Assembly (NCBI RefSeq): GCF_007752535.1
Contig: NZ_CP036426.1
Span: forward strand, 3,534,001 to 3,598,000
DNA length: 64,000 nucleotides
Origin: Tautonia plasticadhaerens
GTDB lineage: Bacteria; Planctomycetota; Planctomycetia; Isosphaerales; Isosphaeraceae
Direction: 5' to 3'
This document shows positions 52,806 through 57,963 of the stretch, in pieces (position 1 is the first letter of the stretch; every line of letters begins with the position of its first letter). The notes under the pieces were generated by a model that saw nothing but the letters and a program-made list of their open reading frames with translations, did not search any database and was not told the origin of the DNA. A program made the position numbers and the translations under genes.

Positions 52806-53235
52806 CGGGGGGCTCCTCTTCCGGATCGATTGGATTGGATGGGATCCGCCCCGGCCGATCGCCGTCTCGGGGGCCCGGAGCGGGGCGGGCCGCCATCGGC
52901 GATCGGTGCAAAGGCGGGGAGTTCTCGGGCACCAGGCCAGGCCGGGACCCCTCCCGACCTCCTTCCCCCGGCCGCGCCCGGCCTCTCGCCGAACGCCCCG
53001 GGCCATCCTCCATGCTAACGCGCCGGAATCGGTGTCGATACCATGAAGCCCGACGGCTCGCGGACCACCCCCCGGCCCGGGCCGGGGGGCACGCTTGGGG
53101 CGGGTCGGGGCGGGGCGGGGGATGGGACCGACCTCGTTCGGCGTCCGCCTGCCGGGACGGCGCATCCCGCCCCCGGATCGCGAACCCAGGCATGCCGGGC
53201 CGGCAAAACCGCCCCCGATCGCACCAACCCGCTCC
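52806..53235. other. Intergenic region without recognisable features
   Basis: 430 bp between two minus-strand genes. It is very GC-rich with no conserved frame; the promoter of the oxidoreductase should be here. No strong repeat seen. Confidence 0.5.
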
Positions 53236-53532
53236 CTAGACGAGGGGTCCCCTCCTCGACGTTGGTACGGCGTCGTTCGAGCAACGAGCCGGGGTCCCGG
53301 CGTCGACTCGGGGGCGCGCGAGGGTCGGCTCCGGGTCGGTCAGGACTTCATAGAGGTCCTCCCCCAGGCGGTTCACCGGGATGCATTCTTCCGTCTGGTA
53401 GGTGAGCACGCTCGGGGCCCGGCCCGCCCCGTCGACCGCATCCGGCTCCTCGTAGGAGCTGTACTCCAGGATGACGAACTCCCGCCCGTCGTCGCCGACG
53501 GCAAGGATCCTCTGCGTCTGCTTCGTTTCCAT
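53236..53532 (-). CDS. Small hypothetical protein, 98 aa (longer start possible)
   Basis: From the ATG at 53532 the product starts METKQTQRILAVGDDGREFV and continues ILEYSSYEEPDAV, then TYQTEECIPVNRLGEDLYEV. This resembles short planctomycete or proteobacterial proteins of unknown function with an 'R....d..G.ef.v.EY' strand pair and 'vnrlgdd.fEv' end. The upstream sequence is open in the same frame to a second ATG near 53751 and contains a Trp-rich stretch (VMWWTRAEWERLP), so a 171-residue protein is an alternative. The last 30 residues are unconserved. No signal peptide. Confidence 0.55.
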   Translation of the reverse strand: METKQTQRILAVGDDGREFVILEYSSYEEPDAVDGAGRAPSVLTYQTEECIPVNRLGEDLYEVLTDPEPTLARPRVDAGTPARCSNDAVPTSRRGPLV

Positions 53533-53810
53533 GGCGTTTCTCACGAGAGCCGGGTCGGCCGGGCCCCCCGTGGGGACCGGCCGACGCGGATGCCGGCCGT
53601 CCGGCCGTCGTCCCCGGGGGGCCGTAATGGGCACCTCCACCAGCCGGACCCAGCCGTCCCCGAAGGGGAGGGCGTCCGGGGGCCGACGGCCGGCCGGCAG
53701 CCGCTCCCATTCCGCTCGCGTCCACCACATCACCGCCCGATGCCGATGCATGGTCGTCCCCCATCCGCGGCCACTCCGGCCCCCCGACGCCCGGCCGGGA
53801 GGCACGAAAT

Positions 53811-55793
53811 TCAGTCCCCTCCCGGCCCCGACGCCGACCGGTCGCCGCCCGCCCCGGCCGAGATCAGCGCGAGCAAGGCGTCATGGTCGAGCGGCTTGAC
53901 CAGGTGGTGGTCGATGCCCACCTCCCGCGACCGGCGGCGGTCCTCGTCCTGGCCGTAGCCGGAGACGGCGACGAGGATCGCCCCCTCACAACACCCCTCC
54001 CGCCGGAGCCGGGAGGCGACCTCGTGGCCGTCCATGCCGGGCAGCCCGATGTCCAGCAGGACGAACTCGGGCCGGGTCTCCCTCGCCGCCCCGAGGGCCT
54101 CGTCCCCGTCGTGGGCCACCGTCACGTCGTGACCGGCGAGCCTCAGGAGCCTCTCCAGCGACCGGGCGGCGTCCGCGTTGTCATCGACGACGAGGACCCT
54201 GGCCCCCGGGTGGGCCGCCCTCGACGGGCCCGCCGACGGGGGCCGCACCTCGACGGGCCCCGTCGCCGCCGGCAACCGCACGACGAATTCGCTGCCCCGG
54301 CCCGGCCCTTCGCTCGCCGCGTCGATCGTGCCGCCGTGCAGCTCGACGAGCCGCTTCACCACCGCCAGCCCGACCCCGAGGCCCCCCTCCGAGCGGCCCG
54401 GCGAGTTGTCCCCCTGGGCGAAGAGCTCGAACAGCTCGGAGAGCTGCTCGGGAGGGATGCCGAAGCCCCCGTCCTTCACGCGGACGACGAGCTGGCCCGC
54501 CTCGACGCGGCCCGAGAGCCGGATGTGCCCCCCGTCCTCGCTGTACTTGGCCGCGTTGGTCAGCAGGTTCACCACCACCTGCTCCAGGCGGGTCGGGTCC
54601 ACCTTCGCCCAGAGCGTCCCCCGGTCGAGGTCGAGCTCCAGCGTGTGGTTCCGCTCCTCGACGAGGGCCGCGACCGTGGCGGCGGCACTCTCCAGGATGG
54701 GCGTCACCTCCAGCGTGTCGCGTCGCAGCCGGATCTTGCCGCGGGCGATGCGGGAGACGTCCAGCAGGTCGTCGATGAGCCGCGACAGGTGCCGCTGCTG
54801 CCGCGAGATGACCCCCAGCGACCAGGCGAGGTCCTCCCCGGCGTCGGACCTCTCGGCCAGCCGGACCGCGTTGCCGATGGCCGCCAGCGGGTTCCGCAGC
54901 TCGTGGGAGAGCATGGCGAGGAACTCGTCCTTGCGTTCGGCCTCGCCGCGGAGCTCCTGGTCGGCCCTCGCGTTCGCGATGGCGACGGCCGCGAGCCGCG
55001 CGAGCTGCACGAGGACGGCCTCGTCGTCCTCGGTGAACTCGCCCTCGACCTTGTCCCAGAGCTGGAGCAGCCCGATGCCCTTGCCGTCCCGGTCGACGAG
55101 CGGGACGACGAGCCAGCCGTTGGGGGTCGGGCGGCCTTCCCCGACCAGGCGGGAGGGGCGGGACCTCGGGTCGGCGTCCAGCTCGGCCCTGGTGAGGCGC
55201 GCGGGCCGGTCCGTCGCGTCGAGGGTCGCGAAGGGCAGCAGGCCGTCCCCGTCCAGGGGGCCCCAGTCGCGGGGCGGATCTTCGGCGGTGGAGGCGACGA
55301 CGATGAGCCGGTTGTGCCTCGGGTTTCCCCCCACGCTCATCGCGGCCCCGCGGGCGCCGATGAGGTCCCTGGCCCCTTCCGCCGCCGCCCTCATGAGCGG
55401 ATCCGCGTCGCGTTCGGAGAGGATGCGCGCGACCAGGGCGACGAGGTCCCGGGGCGGTCGGGCCCGGGGCGGCGTCATCCCGGCGGCGGGACACGCGGCC
55501 CCGTCGCCGTCGTGGAATCGGGCCGCGACCAGCTCGGCCAACGCCGCGAGGGCCGCCTCGGCGTCGGGCCCGCGGGCCTCCAGCTCCAGGCGGGTGCCGC
55601 ACCCCGCGGCGAGCGTCGCCAGGTCCAGGATGCTCTTGCCGTCGACCGCCCGGCCGTCGAGATGGACCCGGACCTCGGCCTCGAACCGCCGGGCCGTGCC
55701 GACGAACAGGTCCGCGGGCCTGAGGTGCAGTCCGAGCGGGTTGAGGATCACGACCGGGCGGCGGGCGACGGGCACGCCATCGACTTCCAGCAT
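53811..55793 (-). CDS. HPr-GAF-histidine kinase-receiver hybrid sensor kinase, 660 aa
   Basis: Residues about 10-93 are an HPr (PTS phosphocarrier) domain: NPLGLHLRPADLF with the phosphorylatable His23 (consensus GLHARPA), then VDGKSILDLATLAAGCGTRL with Ser54 at the regulatory Ser46 position, ending in a normal HPr C-terminal helix. Residues about 112-280 fit a GAF sensor (GWLVVPLVDRDGKGIGLLQL). The kinase core has H297 in FLAMLSHELRNPLAAI, the N box NLLTNAAKY (409-417) and the G boxes GFGIPPEQL and GLGVGLAVVKRLVELHGG. A receiver domain follows (530-645), with Asp581 in LLDIGLPGMDG and Lys633. No membrane segment is visible, so it is a cytoplasmic hybrid kinase. The Crp/Fnr regulator gene stands divergent, 418 bp away. 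Confidence 0.92.
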   Translation of the reverse strand: MLEVDGVPVARRPVVILNPLGLHLRPADLFVGTARRFEAEVRVHLDGRAVDGKSILDLATLAAGCGTRLELEARGPDAEAALAALAELVAARFHDGDGAACPAAGMTPPRARPPRDLVALVARILSERDADPLMRAAAEGARDLIGARGAAMSVGGNPRHNRLIVVASTAEDPPRDWGPLDGDGLLPFATLDATDRPARLTRAELDADPRSRPSRLVGEGRPTPNGWLVVPLVDRDGKGIGLLQLWDKVEGEFTEDDEAVLVQLARLAAVAIANARADQELRGEAERKDEFLAMLSHELRNPLAAIGNAVRLAERSDAGEDLAWSLGVISRQQRHLSRLIDDLLDVSRIARGKIRLRRDTLEVTPILESAAATVAALVEERNHTLELDLDRGTLWAKVDPTRLEQVVVNLLTNAAKYSEDGGHIRLSGRVEAGQLVVRVKDGGFGIPPEQLSELFELFAQGDNSPGRSEGGLGVGLAVVKRLVELHGGTIDAASEGPGRGSEFVVRLPAATGPVEVRPPSAGPSRAAHPGARVLVVDDNADAARSLERLLRLAGHDVTVAHDGDEALGAARETRPEFVLLDIGLPGMDGHEVASRLRREGCCEGAILVAVSGYGQDEDRRRSREVGIDHHLVKPLDHDALLALISAGAGGDRSASGPGGD

Positions 55794-56211
55794 TCACCAC
55801 GCTCCGATGAGGGGCTTTCGAGCGGCAGGACGCTCGCCGGCCCACGGCCATGCCGCCACCCGACCTCCTCTGTACCGCAGGGCTTGCCGGCGACGGCGGC
55901 GTGTCGCCGGGCGGGCCCCCACGCGATGCGTGGGGTCGCGAGACAACCCATCGTCACGGTCGACGACATCCCGTTCAGCTAGGAACCGTACAGACCGCAG
56001 GGTTTTTTTCCCGTATCATGAAAAATCCCGGACTTCGGCCACGCCCGCCACGCGACGGGCCGGTTGCCCGTCGCGTGGCGGGCGTGGCCGCCATTTGAAA
56101 TCATATTCCTTTATGGGAACAGTCACCTTTTCGACATCGGCTGGCCGCCTCGGCGTCGGGCCCGTGCCATCGGTGGCCCTCTCCCGAGGGACGAACCGGC
56201 AGGACTGACCG
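55794..56211. other. Divergent intergenic region with a 25-bp palindrome
   Basis: The gap holds the perfect inverted repeat at 56036-56090 and AT-rich flanks (TTTTTTTCCC at about 56003, ATTTGAAATCATAT after 56092). It should contain the promoters of the hybrid kinase (minus) and the Crp-like regulator (plus). Confidence 0.5.
56036..56090. repeat. Perfect inverted repeat with 25-bp arms and 5-bp loop
   Basis: Left arm 56036-56060 (CGGCCACGCCCGCCACGCGA, then CGGGC), loop CGGTT, right arm 56066-56090 exactly complementary. The AT-rich flanks contrast sharply with the arms. It lies between divergent promoters, where a terminator is not expected. It could be an inserted palindromic element or an RNA leader of the regulator gene. 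Confidence 0.75.
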
Positions 56212-56931
56212 ATGTCGAAGCCACCGACCCCCGCGGATGGGCCGCGAAACCGCCTCCTGGCCCGCCTCCCCCGGGACGAATACCGCCGCCTGCTCCCCCT
56301 CCTCCAGCCCGTCACGCTCAAGGTCGACCAGGTCCTCTACGAGCCCCGCGGGCCCATCGACTACGCCTATTTCCCGAGCGGGGCCGCCCTCTCGGCCCTG
56401 ACCGTCATGCGGGACGGCAACGCCATCGAGGTGGCGACCATCGGCAACGAGGGGCTGGTCGGCCACGACGGCTTCGGCGGCAAGACCTCGCCCCACCGCG
56501 TGGTCGTCCAGGTCGCGGACGGGGCCGACCGCATCGCGTCGCGGGCCTTGCACGAGGAGTCGGCCAGGGACGGCCCGCTCAAGGACCTCCTCTCGGCCTA
56601 CCGCATCGCCTTCATGGTCCAGGTGTCGCAGTCGGTGGCCTGCAACGGCCTGCATCGGCTGGAGCAGCGGTGCTGCCGGTGGCTGCTGATGACCCGCGAC
56701 CGCGTCGGCTCGGACGACCTGAGGCTGTCGCATGAGTTCCTGGCGATGATGCTGGGTGCCCGGCGGGCGAGCGTCACCGAGGCCCTCCGGCCGCTCCAGG
56801 AGGCGGGGCTGGTCAAGTCGCACCGGGGCCGCATCACCATCCTCGACGTGGAGGCCATGGAGGACCGCTCGTGCGAGTGCTACGCCGTCGTGCGGGACGA
56901 GTACGACCGCCTCCTCGGCGACCCGCGTTGA
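56212..56931 (+). CDS. Crp/Fnr-family transcriptional regulator, 239 aa
   Basis: The N-terminal half is a cyclic-nucleotide-binding-like beta barrel (VTLKVDQVLYEPRGPIDYAY, GNAIEVATIGNEGLVGHDGF). A dimerisation helix follows (SQSVACNGLHRLEQRCCRWL) and a C-terminal Crp-type helix-turn-helix (LRLSHEFLAMMLGARRASVT, EALRPLQEAGLVKSHRGRIT). The Cys residues near 146-156 (CCRWLL) are not arranged as an Fnr Fe-S site. The effector is unknown: the Arg that contacts cAMP in Crp is not evident. It stands divergent from the HPr-containing hybrid kinase, which suggests a shared carbon or redox circuit; this is inference. Cytoplasmic. Confidence 0.9.
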   Translation: MSKPPTPADGPRNRLLARLPRDEYRRLLPLLQPVTLKVDQVLYEPRGPIDYAYFPSGAALSALTVMRDGNAIEVATIGNEGLVGHDGFGGKTSPHRVVVQVADGADRIASRALHEESARDGPLKDLLSAYRIAFMVQVSQSVACNGLHRLEQRCCRWLLMTRDRVGSDDLRLSHEFLAMMLGARRASVTEALRPLQEAGLVKSHRGRITILDVEAMEDRSCECYAVVRDEYDRLLGDPR

Positions 56932-57267
56932 CGCCCGGCCCGGGGACCCCCGCGGCCCGCCCCGTCGTCGAGGGCGGGCCGCCGGGATTGCCGGGGATCA
57001 TCCCCCTGATCCGCGGGTGGCCTGGACACCGTCCGCGGTGTCCGGGCGGCGAAGCCGCGAGAGGCTCTTGATCGGCCATCCGTCGCCGATGACCAGGGGT
57101 GGTCTTCCCGGGGGCCTCCTGTGCCTTCGGCCGCCGGCGGCCGGCGGCCGGCGTGGTTGGAATCCACGCATCGGGGCGGACCTCGGCCGACTTCCCGGCC
57201 CGGCCATCCTCGGGATAGGATGATCTACGTGGTTGAGCGAGGGCAAGGCGCCCCTGATTTCGGGAGC
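56932..57267. other. Intergenic region with repeat fragment
   Basis: At 57005-57060 lies a shortened relative of the inverted-repeat element (GGGTGGCCTGGACACCGTCC, then GGTGTCCGGGCGGCGAAGCC). A short palindrome CCGCCGGCGGCCGGCGG is at about 57132. No gene seen. Confidence 0.5.
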
Positions 57268-57591
57268 ATGACGATGCAACTGCCCGAATTCCTGCACGAG
57301 CAAGACGGAGAGGTCCGACTTGCCGGCCATCGGATCAGCCTGTCTCACCTGCTCGTGTTCTACCGGGAGGGCTATTCCGCGGAGATGCTCCGCGAGCAGT
57401 TTCCCACCCTGCCGATGGCCCTGATCCACAAGGCCCTCGGCTATTACTGGGAGCACCAAGGCGTGCTCGACGACGAGTCGGCCCGCGTCCAGGATCGGCT
57501 CGAGGCCGCCAGAGCCTCCCGAGGACGCCTGGACCTCGCCGCCCTCCGGGCCCGGCTCGTCGAGCGGTCGGCCAATCCGGCATCGGATTGA
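57268..57591 (+). CDS. DUF433 family protein, probable antitoxin, 107 aa
   Basis: DUF433 proteins are small VapB-like or winged-helix DNA-binding proteins that pair with PIN-like toxins. The core is present: RLAGHRISLSHLLVFYREGY (usual 'i.GtRi.v..ll......G.s') and SAEMLREQFPTLPMALIHKA followed by LGYYWEHQGVLDD. The ATG at 57268 is preceded by GGGAGC. The three-base gap to the next gene, which encodes a DUF5615-like protein, makes a typical toxin-antitoxin pair. The C-terminal 30 residues are an Arg/Ala-rich helix that could clamp the toxin. Confidence 0.82.
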   Translation: MTMQLPEFLHEQDGEVRLAGHRISLSHLLVFYREGYSAEMLREQFPTLPMALIHKALGYYWEHQGVLDDESARVQDRLEAARASRGRLDLAALRARLVERSANPASD

Positions 57592-57594
57592 CAG

Positions 57595-57963
57595 ATGAAG
57601 ATCCGGTTCGTGCTGGACGAGAACGTGCGTGGCCCCCTCTGGCGGGCGATCCTCCGCCACAACGCCTCGGGCGGACTGCCGATCGACGCCACTCGCGTCG
57701 GCGAGCCGCCCGACCTTCCCCTGGGCTGTTCGGATGAGATCCTGCTGGAATGGTGCGAACGAGAGGGCCGGATCCTGGTCAGCCTCGACCAGGAAACCTT
57801 GCCCGTGCACCTCGCCGACCGGCTGGCCGTCGGAAAAAACTCCCCGGGCATCTTCTTGATCCGGCCGAACGCCTCGCTCCGAGGCGTGCTCGATGCGCTG
57901 GTCCTGGTCGCCCATGCCGGCGACCCGGTCGACTCTCGCGACCAGGTCGTCTCTATCCCCTGA
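57595..57963 (+). CDS. DUF5615 PIN-like protein, probable toxin, 122 aa
   Basis: The protein starts with KIRFVLDENVRGPLWRAILR, the acidic 'FLlDENv' start of DUF5615 PIN-like nucleases, and continues with DATRVGEPPDLPLGCSDEIL and LEWCEREGRILVSLDQETLP. The latter holds the second acidic site ('v.s.D.df'). The acids D8, E9, D47 and D77 could coordinate the metal. As in other pairs, the DUF433 gene lies immediately upstream. The C-terminus is a long strand-helix segment (GIFLIRPNASLRGVLDALVL). Cleavage of RNA is inferred from the fold. Confidence 0.8.
   Translation: MKIRFVLDENVRGPLWRAILRHNASGGLPIDATRVGEPPDLPLGCSDEILLEWCEREGRILVSLDQETLPVHLADRLAVGKNSPGIFLIRPNASLRGVLDALVLVAHAGDPVDSRDQVVSIP

Follow-up and report, generated by a model that had tools for sequence, protein, structure and literature searches.

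An HPr phosphocarrier domain joined in frame to a GAF-containing hybrid histidine kinase in Tautonia plasticadhaerens

Can the phosphotransferase system (PTS) inform a sensor kinase from within the same polypeptide? The question is raised by a gene of the planctomycete Tautonia plasticadhaerens (Isosphaeraceae), located in a 64,000-nucleotide stretch of contig NZ_CP036426.1 (the window), in which an HPr phosphocarrier domain precedes a GAF domain, a histidine kinase, and a receiver. An initial annotation, made from the sequence and its reading frames, had proposed that the phosphorylation state of this HPr, set by the PTS or by HPr kinase, could feed directly into two-component signaling. Examined further, the HPr-kinase fusion is real and unusual, and we consider here which of the proposed inputs would be available to it.

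In the assembly, the fusion occupies a single reading frame (Table 1). All five Pfam domains of the 660-aa protein score above their own cut-offs, with PTS-HPr reaching 88 bits against a cut-off of 23 and matching profile positions 3–80 of 81. Motif positions place the active-site His23 and Arg25 (GLHxRPA) in the fused HPr, and Ser54, His297, Asp581, and Lys633 are likewise all in place; the HisKA His, the HATPase_c domain, and the receiver Asp and Lys together define a hybrid histidine kinase. The initial annotation had described a complete HPr (His23, Ser54) fused in frame to an intact kinase and receiver (H297, D581, K633) and had suggested a domain search. Residue positions, the unbroken frame, and Pfam, with a significant PF00381 match alongside GAF, HisKA, HATPase, and REC, all agree with that description. 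When the fused HPr was compared with the PDB, 32 distinct sequences matched at E ≤0.001 (best 2.2e-14, 3le1), every one named HPr, HPr-related, Crh, NPr, or histidine-containing protein/phosphocarrier. For the whole fusion protein, none of the 60 matches listed, of 81, had a best stretch covering both HPr and kinase. Third-position GC stays at 0.88–1.0 in 32/32 overlapping 40-codon windows along the gene, HPr-GAF junction included, and at 0.88–0.93 in the two windows centered on the linker. This signature is unbroken and no stop occurs, so nothing points to a frameshift or a gene boundary, and the alternatives of a sequencing error or two separate genes were set aside for want of any sign of them.

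Table 1. Features of the fusion gene and its surroundings (window coordinates).
Feature	Coordinates	Strand	Evidence
Whole gene, HPr-GAF-HisKA-HATPase-REC, 660 aa	53811..55793	(-)	ORF, Pfam, third-position GC
HPr domain, residues 12-90; His23 codon 55725-55727	55524..55760	(-)	Pfam PF00381 4e-25, motif positions, PDB HPr matches
Linker, residues 91-127, contains Met106, mostly low-confidence in model	55413..55523	(-)	Sequence, AlphaFold2
GAF domain, residues 128-273	54975..55412	(-)	Pfam GAF_2 6.6e-11
HisKA dimerization/phosphoacceptor domain, residues 288-351, His297	54741..54932	(-)	Pfam 4.4e-16, motif position
HATPase_c catalytic domain, residues 399-510	54264..54599	(-)	Pfam 1.1e-27
Receiver domain Response_reg, residues 533-644, Asp581, Lys633	53862..54197	(-)	Pfam 9.8e-22, motif positions
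Upstream region U, 76% match beside the C3 HPr gene	55835..55995	(-)	DNA comparison
Start of small ORF X1, within ORF 53236-53805, 76% DNA identity beside the C3 HPr gene	53577..53786	(-)	DNA comparison
Crp/Fnr-type regulator, HTH_Crp_2	56212..56931	(+), divergent from fusion gene	Pfam

In an AlphaFold2 model built on a thin alignment of 15 rows, residues 7–90 have their strands and helices in the order expected of an HPr. Mean pLDDT is 85–97 in the first nine blocks; confidence is low at residues 97–134 and across most of the GAF domain, and the whole-model pTM is 0.48. An internal start at Met106 may yield an additional, kinase-only product. The Pfam partners of the fused HPr are limited to GAF, histidine kinase, and receiver domains, so that the protein falls outside the multiphosphoryl transfer proteins (FruB/FPr and DhaM-type EIIA-HPr-EI). 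HPr is one domain of a fusion in those proteins too, as described in the available part of PMC2405797, but there PTS domains are joined to each other and not to two-component domains.

The kinase core has evident relatives. A search of 45 family genomes with the GAF-HK-REC portion found matches at E ≤1e-100 in 35, and the closest near-full-length relatives are 62% (G011), 59% (G029), 59% (G043), and 53% (G008) identical. These belong with the hybrid PAS-GAF-HisKA-HATPase-REC kinases of the same family, to which the core is 53–62% identical over nearly its full GAF-HK-REC length. The difference lies in front: DUF4118 and PAS in G011 and G008, PAS in G029, and a further GAF-HisKA-HATPase-REC-PAS stretch in G043, with no HPr in the frames of any of these four. 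A core tree of 25 rows (22 different) places the fusion core in a clade (99/99) with G011, G029, G008, a kinase of G031, and another kinase encoded in the same genome as the fusion, the latter two both carrying PAS; the fusion core adjoins G011 (82/94), and G043 lies outside the clade. Since PAS-type modules stand there in relatives of the core, HPr is, by domain order, in the input slot held by PAS-type sensory modules in the closest relatives.

The HPr portion has its nearest relative within the same genome, an HPr encoded on contig C3 (support 97/92; the tree of 84 rows has few columns and an unsettled bootstrap). Contig C3 (140,537 bases) is probably a plasmid, and its HPr locus has the upstream region and a neighboring small ORF in common with the fusion locus but has no kinase. 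Three DNA blocks are common to the two loci: the HPr coding sequence (271 bases, 85%), the upstream region (165 bases, 76%), and the start of the small ORF (212 bases, 76%). Region U has its sole other genome match, among the best 40 of 120 first-look candidates scored, adjoining the C3 HPr gene; small ORF X1 gave no Pfam match. The blocks run upstream-small ORF-HPr on C3 and upstream-HPr-GAF-HK-REC-small ORF at the fusion locus, and from this difference in order it follows that a rearranged duplicate without the kinase exists. In a plasmid collection, nothing closely matched the DNA of the C3 locus, and none of its best 5000 records, from which records of the own genome may be excluded, covers 80% of the fusion protein.

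Comparison of the two HPr sequences over 88 codons gave a dN/dS of 0.45 (NG86; bootstrap 0.23–0.92, with an upper bound near 1 and a value not assignable to the fusion branch alone), and YN00 gave dN 0.130 and dS 0.522. On these pairwise estimates, the fused HPr coding sequence shows constraint relative to the C3 copy. Sister branch lengths are 0.14 for the fused HPr versus 0.27 for the C3 HPr. The differences between the two are concentrated in residues 9–39 (13/31 versus 6/57 in residues 40–96; Fisher p 0.001, with the cut chosen post hoc), a segment that includes the active-site loop and helix 1. This is presumably the side of HPr that faces EI and EIIA. Given the divergence, recognition of the fused HPr by EI is not assured.

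The divergent Crp/Fnr-type gene upstream, which the initial annotation took to strengthen a carbon-signaling role, adds little to that case. Its product has no cNMP-binding Pfam match, and no homologue of it was found in the other HPr and kinase loci compared (L011–L142) or in the initial 20 kb of contig C3, where the duplicate of this locus lies, so it does not bolster carbon signaling and was set aside as a partner; it is probably not part of the fusion-kinase system. Between it and the fusion gene lies a 55-base inverted repeat (56036–56090; 25-base arms, 5-base loop) that folds far better than shuffled sequences (z -10.25). An Rfam scan of 53000–57500 returned nothing. Farther on, adjacent DUF433 and DUF5615 genes (57121–57591 and 57595–57963, both (+); DUF5615 just below cut-off) form a pair that we take to resemble toxin-antitoxin modules.

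Which PTS proteins could act on the fused HPr depends on the genome, a 9.4 Mb assembly of six contigs. A profile search of the contigs found six HPr domains, two EIIA_2 domains, and two enzyme I matches, both in full-length frames with all three PEP-utilizer domains (N-terminal, mobile, and PEP-binding). One HPr lies within an EIIA-HPr-EI cluster (L011), the second EI gene is elsewhere (L016), and the second EIIA occurs as an HTH_17-EIIA fusion (L017 4629–5393 (-)). Whether the genome encodes ptsI had been raised as a check on the initial proposal, and two enzyme I genes answer it in the proposal's favor. The HPr-kinase route fared less well. HprK was not found with PF07475 or TIGR00679 at E 0.1, on controls that were imperfect: PF07475 was positive in 3/14 known genomes and missed Bacillus subtilis, while TIGR00679 at the loose limit of E 0.1 was positive in 7/14, B. 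subtilis included, and above cut-off in only 1/14. With no HprK gene detected, the Ser54 route was dropped. The framing of HPr as a carrier toward sugar transporters likewise loses ground: PF02378, the one EIIC family covered, has no match in this genome, and planctomycetes have been described as lacking PTS transporters in the part of PMC2405797 available. Because EI genes are present and neither HprK nor a PF02378 EIIC was detected, EI fed by PEP would be a plausible input on His23. Judged by its gene content, the PTS of this genome appears to be of the regulatory type reported from planctomycetes. It resembles the PTS(Ntr)/EI-R chain (EI-HPr/NPr-EIIA(Ntr)) in having an ordinary-family HPr, EI and EIIA_2 genes, and no PF02378 EIIC, but the carrier of that chain is free, whereas here HPr and a sensor kinase form a single polypeptide.

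To place the fusion among its relatives, PF00381 was searched in 45 family genomes, its own included, giving 84 matches in 44 genomes; an order-level search returned the same set, and a locus contained within another (L033 inside L060) was dropped as a duplicate before counting. Forty-four of the 84 HPr domains lie beside EIIA or EI, 34 have no recognized neighbor (a weak label for L019–L047, where the context window was ~1.5 kb per side and less at contig ends), and 3 have a kinase in the stretch examined. The remaining three are two receiver-HPr fusions and the HPr-kinase fusion at 53811–55793, which was found in no other of the 45 family genomes, the same-genus G040–G042 included. The active His is kept in 80/84 domains and the Arg in 83/84, and all three HPr domains joined to two-component domains keep the His. 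Four unfused paralogues from four genomes of one genus (L055, L067, L108, and L110) carry R, G, G, and K in place of the His and retain Arg and Ser. The sole HPr without the Arg (L059) is in a pts cluster.

Kinases neighbor 3/37 unfused, non-pts HPr genes, no clear excess over a rough expectation (an estimate, not a formal test) from the 61–221 first-look kinase candidates per genome concerned, and genomic neighborhood was therefore dropped as evidence of HPr-kinase coupling. In one case (L086 3783–6179 (+), G027), a receiver-PAS-kinase-receiver gene begins 87 bases after a same-strand HPr gene, by its assumed start; the other two are convergent (L062) or ~1.3 kb away (L106). A Pfam scan of 10/37 of these frames, chosen mainly for length, found HPr and no further fused domain.

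Beyond the family, HPr occurs in at least 381/397 genomes of the class. Nineteen non-family genomes with two HPr domains, picked by eye, were searched again; of 38 matches, the strongest 30 were inspected, and in 0/30 is HPr joined to a kinase or receiver. One of the 30 (L162, G047, same class) is an EIIA-man-HPr-EI multiphosphoryl transfer protein. In five non-family single-HPr genomes with long frames, HPr lies beside EI and EIIA in 5/5. A named-genome scan for HPr with GAF, based on few peptide patterns, gave 15 loci whose match extends at most over residues 1–116, that is, HPr and linker. In the literature covered, to which most subscription journals do not belong, no title or abstract opening concerns an HPr-histidine kinase or HPr-receiver fusion.

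The reading that we favor, at about even confidence, is that phosphorylation of the HPr domain by PEP and EI tunes the hybrid kinase, with HPr serving as its input module. Once charged by PEP, enzyme I would phosphorylate His23, and the ratio of P-HPr to HPr would track PEP/pyruvate as well as the demand from EIIA-type partners. The state of HPr would then change His297 autophosphorylation and transfer to Asp581, through the linker and GAF domain or through docked EI or EIIA, and the output would pass onward via a phosphotransfer protein or response regulator. Such a kinase may read the energy and carbon state of the cell directly. Intact key residues, full-length EI genes (one of them in the EIIA-HPr-EI cluster), EIIA genes, the PAS-slot position, constraint on HPr together with its shorter sister branch, the active His kept in all three HPr domains joined to two-component domains, the independent receiver-HPr join, and the precedent of KdpD and PhoR regulation by the PTS protein PtsN argue for this reading; the single instance, the Met106 start, the dN/dS bound near 1, the divergence in residues 9–39, and the lack of a clear kinase excess beside unfused HPr genes (3/37) weigh against it.

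The same single instance, one among 84 HPr domains and 45 family genomes, also fits a recent fusion without coupling, in which the GAF domain drives the kinase, with perhaps an additional start at Met106, and HPr is a passenger or a tethered phosphocarrier. The low-confidence linker with Met106 inside it suits this explanation, as does a junction close to where the related C3 HPr ends naturally. We nevertheless regard it as somewhat unlikely: the frame has no stop or break and an unbroken coding signature, the HPr shows constraint and has diverged less than its sister on C3, and, besides GAF, Pfam recognizes no input module that would be left to the kinase.

Alternatively, HPr could be a docking module that brings EI or EIIA(Ntr)-type proteins, with the partner, rather than phospho-His23, setting kinase activity. 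PTS proteins are known to inform histidine kinases: PtsN directly regulates KdpD and PhoR according to the accessible part of PMC13104625, acting on KdpD by direct interaction (with the transmitter domain, per a title cited there), and the PtsN-KdpD link also appears in the accessible part of PMC6978683. In those cases EIIA(Ntr) binds in trans, whereas here HPr would act in cis. The EIIA-HPr-EI cluster and the HTH_17-EIIA protein of the genome would offer candidate partners, but any such partner is as yet hypothetical, and His23 and Arg25, needless for pure docking, are both kept; docking by itself appears unlikely.

HPr has been joined to two-component domains elsewhere in the family. The initial annotation called for a search for the same architecture in other planctomycetes; the HPr-kinase order did not recur in the family, and what did appear is a related join, receiver-HPr, in two genomes of another genus (G001 and G002; L060 3035–3790 (+) and L053 13062–13874 (-)), absent from G003, the third genome of that genus searched. 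Each receiver-HPr gene is preceded on the same strand by genes for a HisKA_3 kinase and a LuxR-type regulator. As in the HPr-kinase fusion, the active sites (receiver Asp and Lys, HPr His) are intact, but the receiver comes first and no kinase is present. In the HPr tree, a branch (97/89; short alignment, rough support) separates the receiver-HPr domains from the fused HPr, and, because the domain order also differs, the receiver-HPr fusions, whether they arose in one event or two, would represent a join independent of the HPr-kinase fusion. A broader reading, speculative and distinctly unlikely on present evidence, is that HPr has multiplied in Isosphaeraceae into a family of plug-in modules, connecting the PTS, driven by PEP, with two-component networks in cis as a kinase input here and a receiver tail in two relatives, perhaps with direct exchange between His~P and receiver Asp.

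Least probable is an HPt-like phosphorelay in which His23 exchanges phosphate with a receiver Asp (D581 or another) and so joins the PTS and two-component pools: a hybrid kinase ending in a receiver usually requires a phosphotransfer domain, and the two receiver-HPr relatives keep both sites, but the HPr fold differs from the HPt fold and we know of no case of HPr-to-receiver phosphate transfer. A further point against it comes from Bacillus cereus, where the HPr-like gene bc1009 shares a cluster with sensor-kinase and response-regulator genes (rsbK/rsbY) but encodes a separate protein, and where its deletion left expression of sigB and the cluster unaffected, as stated in the available part of PMC9912610. 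The same case counsels caution about the favored reading as well.

If the favored reading is correct and PEP-driven phosphorylation of HPr is coupled to the kinase, the fusion has consequences beyond this gene. PTS control of sensor kinases operates in trans in the literature covered (PtsN on KdpD and PhoR; available part of PMC13104625), and coupling would move such control from trans to cis. A kinase with a built-in phosphocarrier would make the PTS-kinase link testable in one purified protein, and it would hint at what a PTS without transporters does in planctomycetes.
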